DNA from: Planctomycetaceae bacterium
GTDB taxonomy: Bacteria; Planctomycetota; Planctomycetia; Pirellulales; Pirellulaceae
DNA: 34,505 nucleotides
Reading direction: 5' to 3'
Assembly (NCBI GenBank): GCA_947463915.1
Contig: CANHVO010000025.1
Location: 1-34,505, forward strand
This document shows, piece after piece, positions 3,776 through 30,940 of the stretch. Within the stretch, counting starts at the first letter, position 1, and each line of letters begins with the position of its first letter. Below the pieces are notes generated by a model. It was not told the DNA's origin, made no database searches, and saw nothing but the letters and a program-made list of their open reading frames with translations. The translations under genes were made by a program, and so were the position numbers.

Positions 3776-3849
3776 GGACGGTTAGCTCAGTTGGTTAGAG
3801 CACCACGTTGACATCGTGGGGGTCGTTGGTTCGAGTCCAATATCGTCCA
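3776..3849 (+). tRNA. tRNA-Val: tRNA-Val (anticodon GAC)
   Basis: A complete cloverleaf can be folded. Acceptor arms GGACGGT and ATCGTCC pair with one G-T. The D-arm is GCTC/GAGC. The anticodon stem CCACG/CGTGG encloses loop TTGACAT, giving anticodon GAC (Val codons GTC/GTT). The T-arm GTTGG/CCAAT has loop TTCGAGT, and the discriminator base is A3849. The 3' CCA is not encoded. The 3' end is the attachment core of the island, so the gene is restored intact by the left copy of the repeat. Confidence 0.95.
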
Positions 3850-5170
3850 CTCCTATGCATATGCCAAGCGAAGACATCAAGCGACAAATCTCGTCAAAGC
3901 CCTGAATTATCGGGGCTTTTTTCGTTTCCTGATCTTTCGAGTCCGAGACAGTATGGGACGATTCAAGCCCCTCCGAGACATCGATTGTGGCTAACTTTGT
4001 GGCTAACTTTTGGGAGAGCTTATCCATCGCAGTATCAAGATCTCCGTCCGTGATCGTCCAATAGTGTTCCTTTGCGATCTGCTCTGTATGTCCACAGAAT
4101 GCAGCTGCTACATGGCTAGGTAGATTCTTCGCGAAGTCCGTTGATCCTGACGCTCTCAGATTCTGCCAGAGCTTCGGCCACTGCATTACCCCTGCCCGTC
4201 GGATCATAATCGTCAAACCCTTCCGAAGATTCGTATCGGCTTGGATATTCGGGAAGACATATTCAGCCCCCTCTTCGGCTTCAGCGAAAAGCTTCAAAAG
4301 CTCCGTCTCGATTGCGGGAAGCAAAGGGAGGATCCGTATCGCTCGATTTGCGTGATGCTCCGTCTTGCTCGAAGCGACGATCGAGATCCTTTTTGCTTCC
4401 CAGGCGATATGCTCCCACTTCAGGCCCTGAGCTTCGCTCGGAATTCTTAAAGCTCCCAGCCTTGCCAGAACCAAAAGAGATCGCCAAGAAGCGTTAGGAG
4501 CTTTTTCAAGCACCTTCGCAAAGACTTCCATCGGGATATAGTGCTGTCGCTCTTTGTTGGAGCGAACTGAAGTTGACATTCCTAAGAACGGATTTCGAGA
4601 GATCAACCCGTCTTCGATAGCCTGTTTGAAGATCTGCCGGCAAAGTCCAGTCCGTCGCTTGATCGTGTTGATCGCCAAAGGCTTCGCTTTTTCTCCGTCT
4701 TTGGGTTTGTCTCTCTTGTTTGATGTTTCAAGCCATTGGCGAAAAGCCTTCGCATCCATTGCCGTAATGCTTGAAAGTGTGCGACCCTTGAAGAACTCTT
4801 CGAGTCTTTTTCGAGTGTGTTGATAGGAGATCCAGCTCGCTTTTTTCAGCTCCGACTTATGCGATTCAAAATAGGCCGTGAGATATTGCGAAAGTGTGAT
4901 CTCTTCCTTGACTGGCTCGTCGGCTTGAATCAGGCCTTTATTGGAAAGCTTTTTTCGTTGATCAGCTGAAAGCGAAGCTAGCCATTCAAGCGTCTTTCGA
5001 TCGAGAGGGCTTTCAAAGTCGATACTGTTTGCGATTGCTTGGACGAAAAGCTTCCAGCGATTCGCCTGGGCTTCAGAGAGATCCGTAAGCGATATAACGC
5101 ACCTTTGCTTTTTGACTGATAAGCGAAGCTGCCAGCTGCCGCCTGTTGCTTGTTTTCGGAGACTTGCCAT
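3782..5170 (-). CDS. Tyrosine recombinase (island integrase), 3' end overlapping tRNA-Val
   Basis: Catalyses site-specific integration and excision at tRNA-Val. The 462-residue protein has an N-terminal arm-binding region, a SAM-like core-binding domain (about 90-200) and a C-terminal catalytic domain. Catalytic residues visible: R242 in GALRIPSE, K269 in SSKTEH, R339 in QNLRASG, H361 in CGHTE and Y370 in EHYW. The usual HxxR box is QNLR, so the first His is Gln. The ATG at 5170 has a strong AAGGAAGG upstream; the TTG at 5176 is less likely. Residues 441-462 are translated from the complement of the tRNA-Val gene, and the stop lies inside the tRNA, so this C-terminus exists only in the integrated state. 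A KLATKLAT repeat occurs at about 388-395. Confidence 0.93.
   Translation of the reverse strand: MASLRKQATGGSWQLRLSVKKQRCVISLTDLSEAQANRWKLFVQAIANSIDFESPLDRKTLEWLASLSADQRKKLSNKGLIQADEPVKEEITLSQYLTAYFESHKSELKKASWISYQHTRKRLEEFFKGRTLSSITAMDAKAFRQWLETSNKRDKPKDGEKAKPLAINTIKRRTGLCRQIFKQAIEDGLISRNPFLGMSTSVRSNKERQHYIPMEVFAKVLEKAPNASWRSLLVLARLGALRIPSEAQGLKWEHIAWEAKRISIVASSKTEHHANRAIRILPLLPAIETELLKLFAEAEEGAEYVFPNIQADTNLRKGLTIMIRRAGVMQWPKLWQNLRASGSTDFAKNLPSHVAAAFCGHTEQIAKEHYWTITDGDLDTAMDKLSQKLATKLATIDVSEGLESSHTVSDSKDQETKKAPIIQGFDEICRLMSSLGICIGVDDIGLEPTTPTMSTWCSNQLS
3831..3852 (+). other. attL: attL: left attachment core in tRNA-Val 3' end
   Basis: This 22-bp stretch covers the tRNA from the T-loop to the discriminator and three bases beyond. 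It is identical to 32211-32232 in the same orientation. Sequences immediately outside the two copies differ, which marks the repeat edges. Confidence 0.88.
3896..3922 (+). terminator. Intrinsic terminator just inside the island, downstream of tRNA-Val
   Basis: Arms AAAGCCC (3896-3902) and GGGCTTT (3913-3919) form a 7-bp stem with a 10-nt loop and run into six T on the plus strand. It would stop tRNA transcription before it runs antisense through the integrase gene. It lies within the integrase coding sequence on the other strand (near residues KKAPIIQGF) and on island DNA, not host DNA. Confidence 0.6.
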
Positions 5171-5189
5171 TGTCAAACCTTCCTTCGAT

Positions 5190-19225: not shown

Positions 19226-21613
19226 ATGAACGAAGCGGAAACAAGAGCCGAATACATCGATCCCGCGTTGGCCGCGTGTGGCTGGGGCGTCGTGGAGGGA
19301 AGTCGCATCCGCCGTGAATATGCCATCACACCAGGACGGCTCGAAGGTTTGGGCAGACGAGGCAAGGGGCTGACTGCGGACTATGTTCTGATCTATCGCA
19401 ATACTAAGCTTGCGGTTGTCGAAGCCAAAGCATGGGATGAACCCCTTACGGAAGGAGTAGGGCAAGCAAAAAACTACGCCAAGAAGCTGGAGATCCGCTA
19501 CGCATACTCAACGAATGGACAGGGTATATACGGCATCGATATGAAAACGGGTACAGAATGCGAAATGCCGCAGTATCCAACGCCTGAACAATTGTGGGGG
19601 ATGACCTTTGCTGAGGCGAATGCGTGGTGCGATCGTTTTACGGCAATTCCTTTCGAAGACAAAGGTGGCTCGCATCCCAGTCGGTACTACCAAGACATTG
19701 CGGTTGAGAAAGTGCTTGAAGCTGTTGCTAACGATAAACAGCAGATTCTTTTAACGCTTGCGACTGGTACGGGCAAAACGTTTATCGCGTTCCAAATCGT
19801 TTGGAAGTTGTTCCACAGCCGTTGGAATTTGAGTCGAGAGCCGTCGCGTCGTCCTCGCATCCTGTTCCTGGCCGACCGCAACAACCTTGCCAACCAAGCG
19901 TTCAACGCATTCTCGGCGTTCCCTGAGGACGCGTTGGTCCGTATCGACCCAGAGAGCATCCGTAAAAAGGGCAAGGTTCCCAAGAACGGTAGCATCTTCT
20001 TCACCATCTTCCAAACCTTCATGAGCGGACAGCCTAAGGATGGCCAACCATCGCCCTACTTCGGAGACTACCCACCGGACTTCTTCGACTTCATCGTGAT
20101 CGACGAATGTCATCGAGGCGGTGCGAACGACGAGAGCACTTGGCGAGGCATCCTCGAATACTTTGCTCCCGCCGTACAGCTTGGATTGACCGCCACTCCC
20201 AAACGCAAAGACAATGTCGATACCTATGCCTACTTTGGCGAACCGGTATACGTCTACTCACTCAAGGACGGGATCAATGACGGGTTCTTAACGCCATTCA
20301 AGGTCAAGCAAATACAAACTACTCTGGATGAGTATGTTTACACCGCCGATGATCGAGTCATGGAAGGGGAGGTCGAATACAACAAGCGATATGAAGAAAA
20401 GGACTTCAACAAGATCATTGAGATCAAGGAACGTGAAGCCCATCGCGTGAAGATCTTCATGGATCAGATAAACCAAAAAGAGAAAACGTTGGTCTTTTGT
20501 TCAACACAAGAGCATGCACTCATTGTCCGCGACTTGATCAACCAGATGAAGTCAAGCAAAGATCCAATGTACTGCCAACGCGTAACTGCTGATGACGGCG
20601 AGCTTGGCGAACAACACCTGCGCGATTTTCAAGACAATGAAAAATCGATACCAACGATCCTCACGACTTCTCAGAAGTTATCGACCGGCGTCGATGCTCG
20701 CAACATCCGAAACATTGTGCTGATGCGCCCTGTAAACTCGATGATCGAGTTCAAGCAAATCATCGGGCGTGGCACGCGGCTGTTTGATGGCAAGGACTAT
20801 TTCACCATCTACGACTTCGTTAAGGCGCACCACCATTTCAATGACGTCGAATGGGATGGCGAGCCGGTTGCAGACGATGATCCTTGCTCGAAGTGCAAGA
20901 AGACTCCGTGCGAATGCGAAGTCGCGCCGCCACAGCCTTGTTCAACATGCGGCAAGCGCCCGTGCGAATGCCCCAAGGAGCCCTGCAATATTTGTGGTCG
21001 ATTTGACTGTTCATGCGAAAAGAAGAAGAAGGCAAAAGTAAAATTGGCGGACGGAAAAGCACGTACAATCCAACACATGATGATGACGACCTTCTGGCAT
21101 CCCGACGGAACCCCAATGTCATCAGTGCAATTCATGGAAATGCTATTCGGTAAACTGCCCGAGTTCTTCAAAGACGAAGCCGAGTTGAGAGCCATTTGGA
21201 GCGTCCCAGGTACGCGATCCAAGCTGCTGGAAGGGCTAGCCGAGAATGGGTTCGGAGCCGAACAGATGGCGGAGATGCAGCGTATCGTCGACGCCCAGAA
21301 CAGCGATTTGTTCGATGTGCTGTCTTACGTGGCCTACGCTGCACCGACCAAGACCCGTCAGGAACGTGCGACCCAGGCCAAGGTAGACATCAGTGCCTCA
21401 TTCAATGTCAAGCAGCAAGCATTCCTTGACTTCGTCCTCGCCCATTATGTGGCCGAAGGAGTGCATGAGCTGGATCAGGAAAAGCTGACCCCGCTACTGC
21501 GGCTTATGTACAACAACTCGATCGCCGACGCCATCGTGGAACTGGGGCGACCGGAGGATATCGGCGAGATGTTTTCCGGTTTCCAACAGTATCTCTACAA
21601 GGTCGTCGCCTGA
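19226..21613 (+). CDS. hsdR: Type I restriction endonuclease subunit HsdR
   Basis: Motor and nuclease subunit, 795 residues. The N-terminal nuclease domain has LTADYVLIYR and VVEAKAW, the D...ExK core. Walker A ATGTGKT at 179-185 and the DECH box at 293-296 define the SF2 translocase, and RGTRLFDGKD belongs to helicase motif VI. Residues about 550-600 hold a Cys-rich insertion with repeated CxxC...PCxC units, probably zinc ribbons. An EcoEI-type C-terminal region follows. It is the last gene of the plus-strand restriction operon. Confidence 0.95.
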   Translation: MNEAETRAEYIDPALAACGWGVVEGSRIRREYAITPGRLEGLGRRGKGLTADYVLIYRNTKLAVVEAKAWDEPLTEGVGQAKNYAKKLEIRYAYSTNGQGIYGIDMKTGTECEMPQYPTPEQLWGMTFAEANAWCDRFTAIPFEDKGGSHPSRYYQDIAVEKVLEAVANDKQQILLTLATGTGKTFIAFQIVWKLFHSRWNLSREPSRRPRILFLADRNNLANQAFNAFSAFPEDALVRIDPESIRKKGKVPKNGSIFFTIFQTFMSGQPKDGQPSPYFGDYPPDFFDFIVIDECHRGGANDESTWRGILEYFAPAVQLGLTATPKRKDNVDTYAYFGEPVYVYSLKDGINDGFLTPFKVKQIQTTLDEYVYTADDRVMEGEVEYNKRYEEKDFNKIIEIKEREAHRVKIFMDQINQKEKTLVFCSTQEHALIVRDLINQMKSSKDPMYCQRVTADDGELGEQHLRDFQDNEKSIPTILTTSQKLSTGVDARNIRNIVLMRPVNSMIEFKQIIGRGTRLFDGKDYFTIYDFVKAHHHFNDVEWDGEPVADDDPCSKCKKTPCECEVAPPQPCSTCGKRPCECPKEPCNICGRFDCSCEKKKKAKVKLADGKARTIQHMMMTTFWHPDGTPMSSVQFMEMLFGKLPEFFKDEAELRAIWSVPGTRSKLLEGLAENGFGAEQMAEMQRIVDAQNSDLFDVLSYVAYAAPTKTRQERATQAKVDISASFNVKQQAFLDFVLAHYVAEGVHELDQEKLTPLLRLMYNNSIADAIVELGRPEDIGEMFSGFQQYLYKVVA

Positions 21614-22447: not shown

Positions 22448-22490
22448 TTCGACGCTCCGGCATGTCAAACCGGTTGCGGGTTGGCGACTG
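22448..22490. repeat. Degenerate hairpin repeat, copy R0
   Basis: Matches the right hairpin part of the cassette-repeat family (GACGCTCCGG, a loop ending in TCAAACCGG, then GGGTTGG) with a few changes. It lies 45 bp beyond the 3' end of the minus-strand gene 22535-23080, the same place that copies R1 and R2 hold relative to the next two genes. Confidence 0.55.
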
Positions 22491-22534
22491 CGACTACAAC
22501 TCGAAATCGCGAAGTCGATTTCAACCTTTCGCAA

Positions 22535-23080
22535 TCAACTGTAGTTCCACCACTGATTGTGGATAAACGCAAGTGAGGCGATAAGCTTACGATCCATTGT
22601 GCCGGGCTTCAGAAGCACGCTCCATTGCATTTTTGACAGACCAACCGCGACCCAGATACTTGGTCCCGTATCCGTATCTCCCCAGAATCGAACAGTGAAG
22701 AGTGGCAGTCGAAAAGTGGATGACGCCTGTCCATCGATTCGGATTCGGTATTTGATACCCAGAATATTCCGCAGAGCAATTTGGCCGATCGAATGATCTT
22801 GGTCCATGATCTGAAAGACTGAAGGTAGGAACGACACTCTGCGGATGACGATTTCGGCTTTTCCATCCGTATTTGTAACAACAAAGTCAGGCTTGTTTAG
22901 CGGATTCCCCCATCGGCGTCCGTCGGGATTTGTGCGGGTTCCGTACTGCCAACAAATCTTTCCTTCGTCGTTGTATATCTTTCCCGTTCGATTGAGGCCA
23001 CCGCCATCGATGACGCAAACAAACTTGGAGCCACGCGAGATGATTGTTTCTTCTGAAGGTAAGATTCTATTTGAGCGCAC
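22535..23080 (-). CDS. Hypothetical protein in repeat-delimited unit 1
   Basis: An open frame runs from 23212, but its first 39 codons are repeat R1 read in translation, so the real start is probably the GTG at 23080, giving about 181 residues. No family is certain. The beta-rich pattern (FVCVIDGGG, GKIYNDEGKICW, YRIRIDG, then a C-terminal Trp-rich end) faintly resembles LURP/tubby-type folds, which is a guess. It fills the DNA between repeats R1 and R0 with only 15-45 bp at either side. Confidence 0.5.
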   Translation of the reverse strand: MRSNRILPSEETIISRGSKFVCVIDGGGLNRTGKIYNDEGKICWQYGTRTNPDGRRWGNPLNKPDFVVTNTDGKAEIVIRRVSFLPSVFQIMDQDHSIGQIALRNILGIKYRIRIDGQASSTFRLPLFTVRFWGDTDTGPSIWVAVGLSKMQWSVLLKPGTMDRKLIASLAFIHNQWWNYS

Positions 23081-23094
23081 GGGTTGCCTTTTCG

Positions 23095-23246
23095 GCCTAA
23101 CTAGTAATTCCCAGCGAGGCGCCGGCAAACTCTTAATGTACGCGATCTGACTGGCTGAATGGGCAGGCGAGCCGCTTTGAGGTGAGTGTTTGGAAGGGAA
23201 ACGAGTAAACACTGACGCTCCGGCGTGTCAAACCGGAGCGAGTCGG
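23095..23246. repeat. Cassette repeat R1
   Basis: About 152 bp. The left end reads GCCTAAC then TAGTAATTC; the right end holds the hairpin GCTCCGG...CCGGAGC (9-nt loop). Closely similar along its length to R2 and R3, including GGCAGGCGAGC and TGTTTGG blocks. The left and right ends form an imperfect inverted repeat. It lies at the 5' side of the gene 22535-23080 and 46 bp after the stop of the next minus-strand gene. Confidence 0.85.
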
Positions 23247-23291
23247 ACGATGGTGTGGGAGGGTGCCCGGCAACGGGAATGCTTACCGGAT

Positions 23292-23594
23292 TTACTCCTT
23301 TGTTTTTTCTAGTTCATCAAGCGGTTCGGTACGGTCATAGTGATGCAAAAGTAGGTAGTCGTCCCACCCCGCTGCACCCGTCATTGTAACGATCATCGCA
23401 TCTCGAAGTTCGGCTCCGAGCAATTTCGATTCGATAAGTTGTGAACGAACGCGATTCCACGTTGTTGTGCGGTTTGCGGTCTCAATAGTTAGGTTGACGT
23501 ATTGACCGTCGTCATTGCCAGTTTCGAACGAGATTAATTCAGGCCAAGCGTCTTTTAATCTGTCCAAATAGTCGATGATATCCTTTTCGGTCAT
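23292..23594 (-). CDS. Hypothetical 100-residue protein in repeat-delimited unit 2
   Basis: A soluble protein of about 100 residues starting MTEKDIIDYLDRLKDAW. It has a helix-rich N-terminus and a middle stretch NRTTTWNRVRSQLIESKLLG. No family recognised. An alternative ATG at 23639 adds 15 residues. The longer frame to 23852 would translate repeat R2 and is rejected. The gene alone fills the interval between R1 and R2, the geometry of a single-gene cassette. Confidence 0.5.
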   Translation of the reverse strand: MTEKDIIDYLDRLKDAWPELISFETGNDDGQYVNLTIETANRTTTWNRVRSQLIESKLLGAELRDAMIVTMTGAAGWDDYLLLHHYDRTEPLDELEKTKE

Positions 23595-23680
23595 GGAGGA
23601 CAGTCGATCAATTTGTATTTGGCAGCAAATGATTGTCATCGAATATGAAAGTGCAATGGATCGTAGGACCTTGCAGGGGT

Positions 23681-23840
23681 GACTAGTAATTCTCCAACGC
23701 GGCTTCGGTAAGCGCACTCCCAATGTACCCTTTCTGACTGTTTGAATGGGGCAGCGAGCTACCTGGAGGTGAATGTTTGGCAGGGCGCAAAGTAAACAGC
23801 GACGCTCCGGCGTGTCAAACCGGAGCGAGTTGGACTTAGG
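23681..23840. repeat. Cassette repeat R2
   Basis: About 160 bp, similar over its whole length to R1 and R3. Left end GACTAGTAATTCTCC, right end hairpin GCTCCGG...CCGGAGC followed by GAGTTGGACTTAGG. Its frames translate into the Arg-Ser-rich peptide seen at the N-terminus of overlong ORFs, which are artefacts. Flanked by the stop of gene 23928-24563 (87 bp) and the start of gene 23292-23594. Confidence 0.87.
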
Positions 23841-23927
23841 TACACTCGCCAACCAAACGCAGTGGCCCGCAGATTGGCCAGAGAAATCCGGCCCTTATGC
23901 CGATTGATTATTGATTGATTATTACCG

Positions 23928-24563
23928 TTATCCAGTGGGCTCGCTGAGAAACACCGTTGGCGGACCATGCAGGTTGCGTTGATATGGTATCACGCGACAT
24001 TTCGGAAAACGGCTTTCGAATCGCAAAATAGCATCGTCGGTGATTTTATCGCAGTCAATAAAGACGTATTTCAAATTCGGCATGGTAGATGCGATCTGCA
24101 ATGAAGCATCAGTAAGTACTTCATTATCCAAATAGAGATCGGAAATTCGATCGAGTCCATCCAGGCCCAAAATCAAGCCGAAATCGGCGTCCGATACCCC
24201 ACCCTCTATCGAAAGTTGGTGCACATAGGGAATCGGAAAGAAATTCCGGCGTACTGAGACATCGTAAGACTCGAGTTGCGTTAGGAGCCTCTGGTGTTGC
24301 AATTCGGCACGACTAATTAATGCGACGTATGCGCAAAGAGCGGTTGCGACGAGCCCGAATAATCCTCTGCCCAAAATGCGATTGTAACGGAAGGTTGCTC
24401 GCAAAATGTAAGCAATACCAACTAGGGTTAAGACAATTGCGATCGGCAAAGTGAGTGCGCGAAGTGGGGTAAGGACAACGAGCAGCGCGACAACGATTGT
24501 CGCGTTGCGCAACGCCTTTCCTCCACCACCACTCGATTTCGCTTCTGGCGAATCATCTGCCAT
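23928..24563 (-). CDS. Membrane protein with C-terminal LRR-like region, unit 3
   Basis: A 211-residue protein. Residues about 18-90 contain two or three membrane helices (ATIVVALLVVLTPLRALTLPI, IVLTLVGIAYIL, LFGLVATALCAYVALI). The C-terminal half is leucine-rich with repeat-like spacing (LDGLDRISDLYLDNEVLTDASL, MPNLKYVFIDCDKITDDAI). The family is unknown. ATG 24563 lies about 25 bp after repeat R3, and the stop lies 87 bp before R2. Confidence 0.6.
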   Translation of the reverse strand: MADDSPEAKSSGGGGKALRNATIVVALLVVLTPLRALTLPIAIVLTLVGIAYILRATFRYNRILGRGLFGLVATALCAYVALISRAELQHQRLLTQLESYDVSVRRNFFPIPYVHQLSIEGGVSDADFGLILGLDGLDRISDLYLDNEVLTDASLQIASTMPNLKYVFIDCDKITDDAILRFESRFPKCRVIPYQRNLHGPPTVFLSEPTG

Positions 24564-24587
24564 CGTTTGAGTCGGTTTTAGCTTTCG

Positions 24588-24750
24588 GGTAAACAGTAGT
24601 TCTCCGACGCGGTGCCGGTAAACACGTTTCTAATGTACCCCATCTGGCTGATTGGTTGGGCAGGCGAGCCACTTGGACCTGAATGTTGGCTTGGAGCCAT
24701 TTAATCACCGACGCTCCGGCGTGTCAAACCGGAGCGAGTTGGCGTTAGGC
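24588..24750. repeat. Cassette repeat R3
   Basis: About 163 bp, the best match to R1 and R2. Left end near GTAAACAGTAGTTCTCCG; the right hairpin GCTCCGG...CCGGAGC is followed by GAGTTGGC and GTTAGGC at 24744-24750. GTTAGGC is the exact inverse of the GCCTAAC at the other end of R1, so the family has complementary termini. Confidence 0.87.
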
Positions 24751-26202: not shown

Positions 26203-26673
26203 CGCACGGCCTTCACGCCCTGTTTACGCTTTTCGCAAGGCGTCGCTTCGTTGGGATCAAACTCAGGACTCTGTGTTTCTAAGTCGCGATTATGGCTCGC
26301 GTTGTCCGGGCATTTTGAAAGCCGAGCGATTTCATCTCCCGTGTCTTGCACCGCGGACGCTTGGGAACGTTTCGTGCTGCGTGCTCTGGCTCAGTGGCAG
26401 GCGGTGTTTGTGCCGAAGCGGAAGACGTATCGTAATGGATGTCGTTTCGTCCGTTGTGCTCGATTAGTCCCTTGTGTTTGTACGTCACCCTGCCATCGAA
26501 CGCGTGGCGATTGCTCAAATTCTTGAACGCAGACAGAATTTTTGCTGAAGTCCATCCTCCCAAGTCGCTCCGGTCACCCAAACGTCACCCAAACCGGAGC
26601 GAGCCGAGGCTAGGCAAACTCACCGTCCTGTACAGAGTTGCTTCCAACTGAATAGGAAGTAGTCGAGTTCGGC
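26203..26673. other. Gene-poor spacer with a hairpin repeat
   Basis: No convincing gene. Several overlapping frames (for example 26251-26526) are Cys- and Arg-rich and appear on both strands, typical of non-coding DNA. The only structured element is the hairpin variant R4v at 26562-26603. Confidence 0.45.
26562..26603. repeat. Hairpin repeat variant R4v
   Basis: Perfect 10-bp stem TCGCTCCGGT (26565-26574) with ACCGGAGCGA (26593-26602). The 18-nt loop carries CACCCAAA twice. The 42-bp block is identical to 30832-30873. Stem sequences are those of the cassette-repeat family, but the loop differs. GGCTAGGC follows. It lies 71 bp after the stop of the SUMF1 gene. Confidence 0.75.
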
Positions 26674-27474: not shown

Positions 27475-27587
27475 TTCAAATCTCACGAGGCCGGGGCGAT
27501 AAAAGGCGATAAAAGTCCCGAGATGATTCACGGGGAATCCTAGTTGTATCTGATTGATTCGTGGAAAACAAATAGCGATGCGGCAGC

Positions 27588-27681
27588 GAAGGGAAGATCT
27601 GGTTGGCTGGAGGCGAACGTTTGGCTTGGAGCCGAGCTAACACCGACGCTCCGGCGTGTCAAACCGGTGCGTGTTGGCAGT
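27588..27681. repeat. Cassette repeat, partial copy R4
   Basis: Matches the right half of R1-R3: GGTTGGCTGGAGGCGAACG, TTTGGCTTGGAGCC, then GACGCTCCGGCGTGTCAAAC and CCGGTGCGTGTTGGCAGTTA. The left end is degenerate or absent. The hairpin arm is changed by one base. It stands between the divergent SUMF1 gene and the gene at 27891. Confidence 0.75.
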
Positions 27682-28700: not shown

Positions 28701-29225
28701 CGCTTCAGGTAATGCATTGAAACAGATTGGCTCTTAAAGCGGGCGAACATGCTGCTTCGACCAAGTATTTCAGGCCGAATTGTTGTCATAGTTTTGGCCG
28801 GTCCTACGAATTTCGCATGGCGGAGTTCGGCAACGGAAGCTAGTTGTTGTACTGCGTCACGGATCAGGGGACGGCTAGGCCTGATTATTCGGATCATCCG
28901 ACGCACCGGCGTGTCAAACGCGTGTCAAACCGGAGCGAGCTGCGGTCTGGAATGGGCCCCCGAGCAATCCGAGCCCCCATCGCCATTGCCATGGTTATGT
29001 GACTCTAACTAGTTCTACTTCCAGTAGCCACCGCATTTTCCACAGCTTAGTGCGTGATTCGCCCCCAATTTCAAAGTCCAAACTAGTCAACCAACTGCGG
29101 ACATTGGAATCGGCTCGCTAGCTGTCAATCACAGATTGGAGCCAATGTTGAAAAGCGATTTACGACGCACGCACCATTCCGATTGGGTATATTGGAAGTG
29201 CAAAATCCTTTTCTTGGAGCAATAA
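28701..29225. other. Gene-free spacer with hairpin repeat R5
   Basis: No credible gene in 525 bp; open frames are short and overlapping. The repeat R5 is the only recognisable element. An AT-richer stretch from about 29180 precedes the next small gene and may hold its promoter. Confidence 0.45.
28899..28946. repeat. Hairpin repeat R5 with duplicated loop
   Basis: Resembles the right part of the cassette repeat: GACGCACCGGC, then GTGTCAAACGC followed by a second GTGTCAAACC and GGAGCGAGCTG. The loop segment is tandemly duplicated relative to R1-R3. The left arm has one mismatch. No left part of the element is visible. Confidence 0.65.
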
Positions 29226-30831: not shown

Positions 30832-30873
30832 AAGTCGCTCCGGTCACCCAAACGTCACCCAAACCGGAGCGAG
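30832..30873. repeat. Hairpin repeat variant R6v
   Basis: Forty-two bases identical to 26562-26603: a 10-bp perfect stem TCGCTCCGGT/ACCGGAGCGA around a loop with CACCCAAA twice. Flanking sequences of the two copies differ, so the repeated unit is the hairpin itself plus three bases at its left side and one at its right. Confidence 0.75.
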
Positions 30874-30940
30874 TTCGTTTACGAGAAAAAAAAACCGTCA
30901 TTAGACAACTAACAAACCGTGTTTGCAGGTTCAATTGGGG

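Follow-up and report, generated by a model that had tools for sequence, protein, structure and literature searches.

The window, the whole stretch of 34,505 nucleotides analysed here from a Planctomycetaceae genome (7.6 Mb, 618 contigs), contains three integron cassettes, which very probably come from a very large cassette system with giant attC sites mobilised by the integrase IntI. Each cassette would run from TT to G and consist of one gene followed by a giant attC. The proposed giant attC opens with R'' at the stop codon and continues with a 5' module, of which there are several, the shared 35-bp core hairpin, a leader of about 115 bp that contains a -10-like motif, and lastly the G of R'. 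The integrase gene is located on another contig; its product IntI would most probably cleave the folded single strand at G^TT, and would insert and excise the giant cassettes like canonical ones. As no IntI-type integrase was found in the window by the profile search and no canonical attC by the canonical attC model search, the array is regarded as a CALIN. No intI or attI lies beside it. The features are as follows (CM, covariance model score).

24587..24743, minus strand: R3, core hairpin and leader, 3' part of a putative giant attC (CM 164 bits, alignment); R' G^TT position at 24594/24593
24632..24637, minus strand: TACATT, -10-like motif in R3 (alignment); equivalents on the minus strand at 23722-23727 (R2) and 23135-23140 (R1)
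23928..24563, minus strand: gene of cassette 1, 211 aa, without Pfam family
23677..23936, minus strand: putative giant attC of cassette 1, about 260 bp, containing R2 (CM 162 bits), in the order R'' ACTGGATAAC (overlapping the stop codon), class-G module, core, leader, R' GTCACCC
23677-23834, minus strand: R2 repeat (158-column model)
23292..23639, minus strand: gene of cassette 2, ATG at 23639, without Pfam family
23095..23301, minus strand: putative giant attC of cassette 2, about 206 bp, containing R1 (CM 153.5 bits), in the order proposed R'' AAGGAGTAA (overlapping the stop codon), class-H module, core, leader, R' GTTAGGC
23095-23247, minus strand: R1 repeat (158-column model)
22535..23080, minus strand: gene of cassette 3, GTG start inside the cassette, without Pfam family
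22450..22478, minus strand: R0, degenerate end of the array, where only the core remains and the leader is lost or replaced (CM 22 bits over model positions 8-35)
27534..27678, minus strand: isolated, partly decayed or truncated repeat upstream of the array (CM 73.7 bits)
28898..28937, minus strand: isolated core in which 11 bp are duplicated internally (GTTTGACACGC twice; CM 21.9 bits)

The first-pass annotation had described three repeats and a degenerate R0 alternating with three single minus-strand genes, and both the model matches and the core counts agree with this description. R1–R3, of about 157 bp each, score 154–164 bits against the 158-column model. The 26-bp core GACGCTCCGGCGTGTCAAACCGGAGC has four matches in the window, versus none in 100 shuffles. 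Cassette 1 spans 24593 to 23683, cassette 2 spans 23682 to 23101, and cassette 3 extends from 23100 to the decayed R0. A longer GTG/TTG reading of the cassette 2 gene extends into the leader, and the longest ORF of cassette 3 extends to 23212. The R''/R' match of cassette 1 is 6/9 in the 9-mer test. The R'' of cassette 2 was called by eye, and it differs from the best 9-mer of the complementarity test. Taken singly, the three window cassettes show weak or modest R''/R' complementarity, and the R' of R2 is GTC, not GTT. Thus, the attC copies in the window may be partly decayed.

The attC limits had previously been placed at the repeat ends, with GCCTAAC, which opens R3, and GTTAGGC, which closes R1, as the boxes. 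Both sequences are present, and GTTAGGC of R1 is the R' box. However, GCCTAAC is not R''; it is an internal sequence found in only one of several upstream modules. The repeat-end limits were wrong, as R'' lies at the gene's stop codon, 50–230 bp upstream of the core. The best reading of what had been called degenerate attC sites is that they are giant ones whose 5' modules vary.

In the whole genome, 93 copies of the 26-bp core are present, and 116 repeats were found by the search with the 158-column covariance model. Nearly all of them are located in co-oriented arrays that fill short contigs (C186, C198, C33, C232, C390, C486, C518, C528 and C548). Each unit has one small gene, or two in some units, and the longest ORF is in the repeat sense in 67/77 units. 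An ORF of at least 70 aa follows within 160 nt after 57/58 repeats, at a median distance of 19 nt. According to the repeat alignment, conservation falls sharply past GTT. The unit proteins are unrelated except for one near-identical pair and a few weak similarities. In a Pfam scan of 35 proteins, most had no family; the scattered matches were SUKH (SMI1/KNR4, two proteins), DUF4262, DUF4240, DUF5662, DMP19, LRR, ankyrin and flavodoxin. One near-duplicate cassette pair has the leader as well as the gene in common, and thus some exchange clearly occurred in the core, not at G^TT. Flanks that seemed duplicated at the ends of contigs (e.g. C186/C33) were disregarded, as they are probably assembly overlaps.

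The cassette boundaries were located by comparison between species. The G/TT breakpoints named in the first-pass annotation were found in two array genes, one shared with the genome G389 and one with G349. One gene of the arrays (after the site at L036 2330) is also present in the same-genus genome G389, and the homology starts exactly at TTCG (...AATTACTAG^TTCGTTGTTTCAATGG in the genome studied here and ...TTTCAATCT^TTCGTTGTTTCAATGG in G389). The DNA before G^TT is unrelated between the two genomes, and the G389 copy is followed by a canonical attC. A second array gene, shared with G349, likewise begins at G^TT. The G^TT breakpoint in these alignments is the integron crossover. Left of the core, the sequence is not random but can be grouped into a small number of modules (A/G, F, H with its deletion variants, and some others). 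Relatives carry these modules too, and they start at the stop codon of the gene. The opening bases of a module finish with AAC and are matched by the reverse-complemented start of the cassette it belongs to, for example, ATGCATAAC with GTTATGCAT, GGGACGAAC with GTTCGTCCA (8/9), and CGCATAGC with GTTATGCG (7/8).

The complementarity was evaluated against permuted pairings. For 61 cassettes, the best 9-mer within the same cassette scores 6.90 versus 6.50 ± 0.08 for the permuted pairs (0/300 as high), and the AAC-anchored R''/R' score is 3.31 versus 2.63 ± 0.11 (0/2000 reach the observed value). Clear complementarity is seen in only about a third of the cassettes. R'' fits the start of its own cassette (3.32) better than the physically adjacent start (2.78). 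Integron cassettes are expected to show this asymmetry, because the final bases of R' are part of the following cassette. It is predicted by no MITE or promoter model. From the same-cassette complementarity and its asymmetry, we conclude that the attC probably consists of R'', module, core, leader and G^TT. In this reading, the repeat makes up no more than the 3' half of an attC that is much longer, with R' as the terminal GTT.

Other delimitations were considered and rejected. The isolated repeat of about 150 bp shows no attC closure: its predicted AAC:GTT pairing is 0.11 versus 0.10 for shuffled interiors, and no complementarity was found around the AAC of the core. The repeat alone was rejected as a complete attC on both points. 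RNAalifold on the repeat gave the core hairpin only, and neither this nor other internal hairpins showed covariation. An attC located to the left of the core, with CCGG^TTTGAC as the crossover point, was rejected, as no enriched complementary arm was found. A core-only unit boundary, hinted at by one near-duplicate pair, was overruled by the cross-species breakpoints and the R''/R' test. A reversed attC orientation relative to the genes was set aside because the breakpoints put G^TT on the gene side.

The giant attC is 178–384 bp in length (median 287) in 19 delimited sites, which were picked by an R'' score of at least 4/6 and among which a few individual limits may be wrong. This is two to three times the published size range of 57–141 bp (PMC5371416). 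In full folds, the giant sites have 6.3 arm-to-arm pairs versus 1.9 for shuffled arms, and the arm pairing is near zero in several sites. The L''/L' covariation is not significant. Long-range folding of the giant sites is thus partly supported by these predictions. Because of this partial support and the non-significant covariation, we only infer from the sequences that the giant sites may be recombined by IntI at the present day.

Canonical attC sites are also present in the genome. A model was built from four sites, from this genome and two same-genus relatives. These sites are about 92 bp long, with L''/L' paired 10/10 and one extrahelical G in all four. The model finds 55 sites at E <= 1 in the genome. 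Canonical arrays are located on C312, C378, C520, C369, C565 and C156, and single canonical sites lie within the giant arrays on C33, C528 and C518; another adjoins IntI on C416. The two classes are contiguous in relatives: a canonical array of G389 passes without interruption into giant sites, and a canonical site of G349 comes after giant ones.

The genome search for intI, also proposed earlier, gave an intact IntI reading frame on C416 (385 bits, above the curated cut-off). It carries SGLR, HxxR, LGH, the terminal Tyr and the IntI-type insert PYAYAVKSPDWGRQLAWQYMFPG. It adjoins an attI-like junction, G^TTCGTCG, and a canonical cassette whose R'' CGACGAAC is an exact match. An IS91-type Y2 transposase gene (L044 385-1578) lies directly after this first canonical cassette. 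C416 has IntI and the attI-like junction, but no giant site. By sequence, the closest IntI (80%) is that of a pond MAG assigned to the Planctomycetaceae, and no giant sites were found on the stretch of it examined. G349 has 12 core matches and no IntI above the cut-off in an assembly that is 95% complete; this, like the separate location of IntI and the giant sites, speaks against the main reading. The original proposal that a planctomycete carries an attC cassette array (CALIN) here is supported by the G^TT breakpoints, the same-cassette R''/R' complementarity, the interspersed canonical attC sites and the IntI on another contig.

In a survey of 397 genomes of the order, the core was limited to the same genus and a small number of other members of the family; of 392 genomes sampled from the phylum, only this one has it. 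In relatives, the core also occurs alone (about 36–40 bp), isolated, dispersed and leaderless, at L068 9731, L088 1453, L089 8784, L090 11092 and L091 9775. These leaderless cores resemble a REP-type repeat, and they are a possible source of the enlarged attC loop.

The main rival explanation is that the core and leader are a separate small mobile or REP-like element, inserted repeatedly into the loops of ordinary attC sites. The cassettes would still belong to an integron, but the giant size would then be secondary, and the sites may be dead. The isolated leaderless cores outside arrays, hybrid sites with a canonical R''/L'' half (L051_2271, L042_1142 and L048_152), the core-centred exchanges and the 11-bp core duplication are consistent with this explanation. 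However, no target-site duplication was seen, and more than 100 insertions at one place and in one orientation would be needed. Moreover, the leader end coincides exactly with the G^TT crossover, and several 5' modules, which other species also carry, lie between R'' and the core. We consider this explanation unlikely.

A non-integron cassette system like the rAID arrays of Bacteroidales is far less probable still. Those arrays combine short genes of one orientation, some for immunity-like proteins, with motifs conserved between the genes and a tyrosine recombinase (PMC12247911). Co-oriented short genes, conserved intergenic sequence and some SUKH proteins are found here as well, and the two SUKH, DUF4262, DUF4240, DUF5662 and DMP19 matches among the 35 scanned proteins fit such a system. 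Unlike the rAID arrays, the present arrays have integron-type boundaries and attC sites; the G^TT boundaries, the same-cassette complementarity and the interspersed canonical sites indicate an integron. No recombinase of a non-IntI type linked to the arrays, such as the XerD-like one expected of rAID arrays, was found: the array stretches of the genome, which are split over many contigs and thus limit the search, gave no tyrosine recombinase match. The least probable explanation, a MITE or duplicated promoter spread among ordinary chromosomal genes without any cassette system, would account for the high copy number and the conservation of the whole repeat body, but it is disfavoured by the single orientation, the tie to unrelated single genes, the sharp drop of conservation past GTT, shared genes that begin at G^TT where the repeats end, and the lack of visible target-site duplications (one genome per species compared), and it is contradicted by the R''/R' test.

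Returning to integron cassettes with giant attC sites, the leader carries a promoter-like motif. The T, A, A and T of TACATT (TA-A-T) are invariant in 48/48 aligned repeats, and many neighbouring columns are at 65–90%. The motif lies about 40 nt upstream of R', and the gene starts are located at a median of 19 nt past R'. No matching -35 box is evident in the aligned repeats. The leader may drive the gene of the next cassette. More tentatively, the giant attC sites might be active IntI substrates with an enlarged loop that holds a promoter, so that each cassette supplies a promoter for its downstream neighbour. If this is true, the expression of the array would be independent of a single Pc promoter. 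Cassette promoters are documented mainly in gene-less Vibrio cassettes, and one start site is known inside an attC (PMC11014356). How large arrays express their distal cassettes is an open question, to which the presence of such a promoter-like motif in nearly all sites is relevant.

The arrays resemble the sedentary chromosomal integrons or superintegrons of Vibrio and CALINs in having long series of mostly single unrelated genes with attC sites between them, a G^TT crossover, and an IntI with the IntI-specific insert elsewhere in the genome. Unlike in those systems (attC of 57–141 bp; PMC5371416), the attC sites here are 178–384 bp, modular and equipped with a conserved -10-like motif, two attC size classes are mixed in one genome, and the window has no intI. 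A covariance model of Planctomycetes attC sites was built previously (PMC8352920), and the phylum is listed among integron carriers (PMC8618304). The reported planctomycete integrons share the phylum, IntI and the ordinary attC class of about 92 bp with the present system. In the literature, as far as it was covered, no report of a giant modular attC with a promoter-like motif was found. Treponema succinifaciens has attC sites of 63, 68 and 132 bp (PMC3607928), and thus also short and long sites in one genome, but its long class is within the known range. Integron surveys commonly cap attC at 200 bp (IntegronFinder settings quoted in PMC13203075). With this limit, most of the array would be missed and the integron content of planctomycetes underestimated. 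The giant sites provide a test of the amount of DNA that an attC loop can accommodate without losing its ability to recombine.

Several minor features were observed. The 11-bp tandem loop duplication (GTTTGACACGC) is also present in core hairpins at L042 ~465 and at L087 10315 and 11159, in more than one species. The variant hairpins GCTCCGGTTTGGGTGACGTTTGGGTGACCGGAGC at 26564-26601 and 30843-30878 of the window are related to the core, with a doubled 11-bp loop unit. At L037 7935-7965 (contig C33), two arrays are joined head to head via a long near-perfect palindrome, which is built from the left half of the core in two copies (CCAACTCGCTCCGGTTTGACA-CTCGCA-reverse complement). Another dispersed repeat, distinct from the core and containing CCGGCGGCTCACGCCGCCGG, occurs in L045, L050 and L051 (several copies), sometimes directly left of a core. 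In G349, L087 15859-16376 is a fused remnant of two genes that are carried by separate cassettes in the genome studied here (97% identity each); this fusion is cassette decay by deletion. The window itself also contains a tRNA-Val with an adjoining phage-type tyrosine recombinase gene (3776-5176) and a gene like a type I restriction R subunit (19226-21613), and it looks like a tRNA-targeted genomic island.
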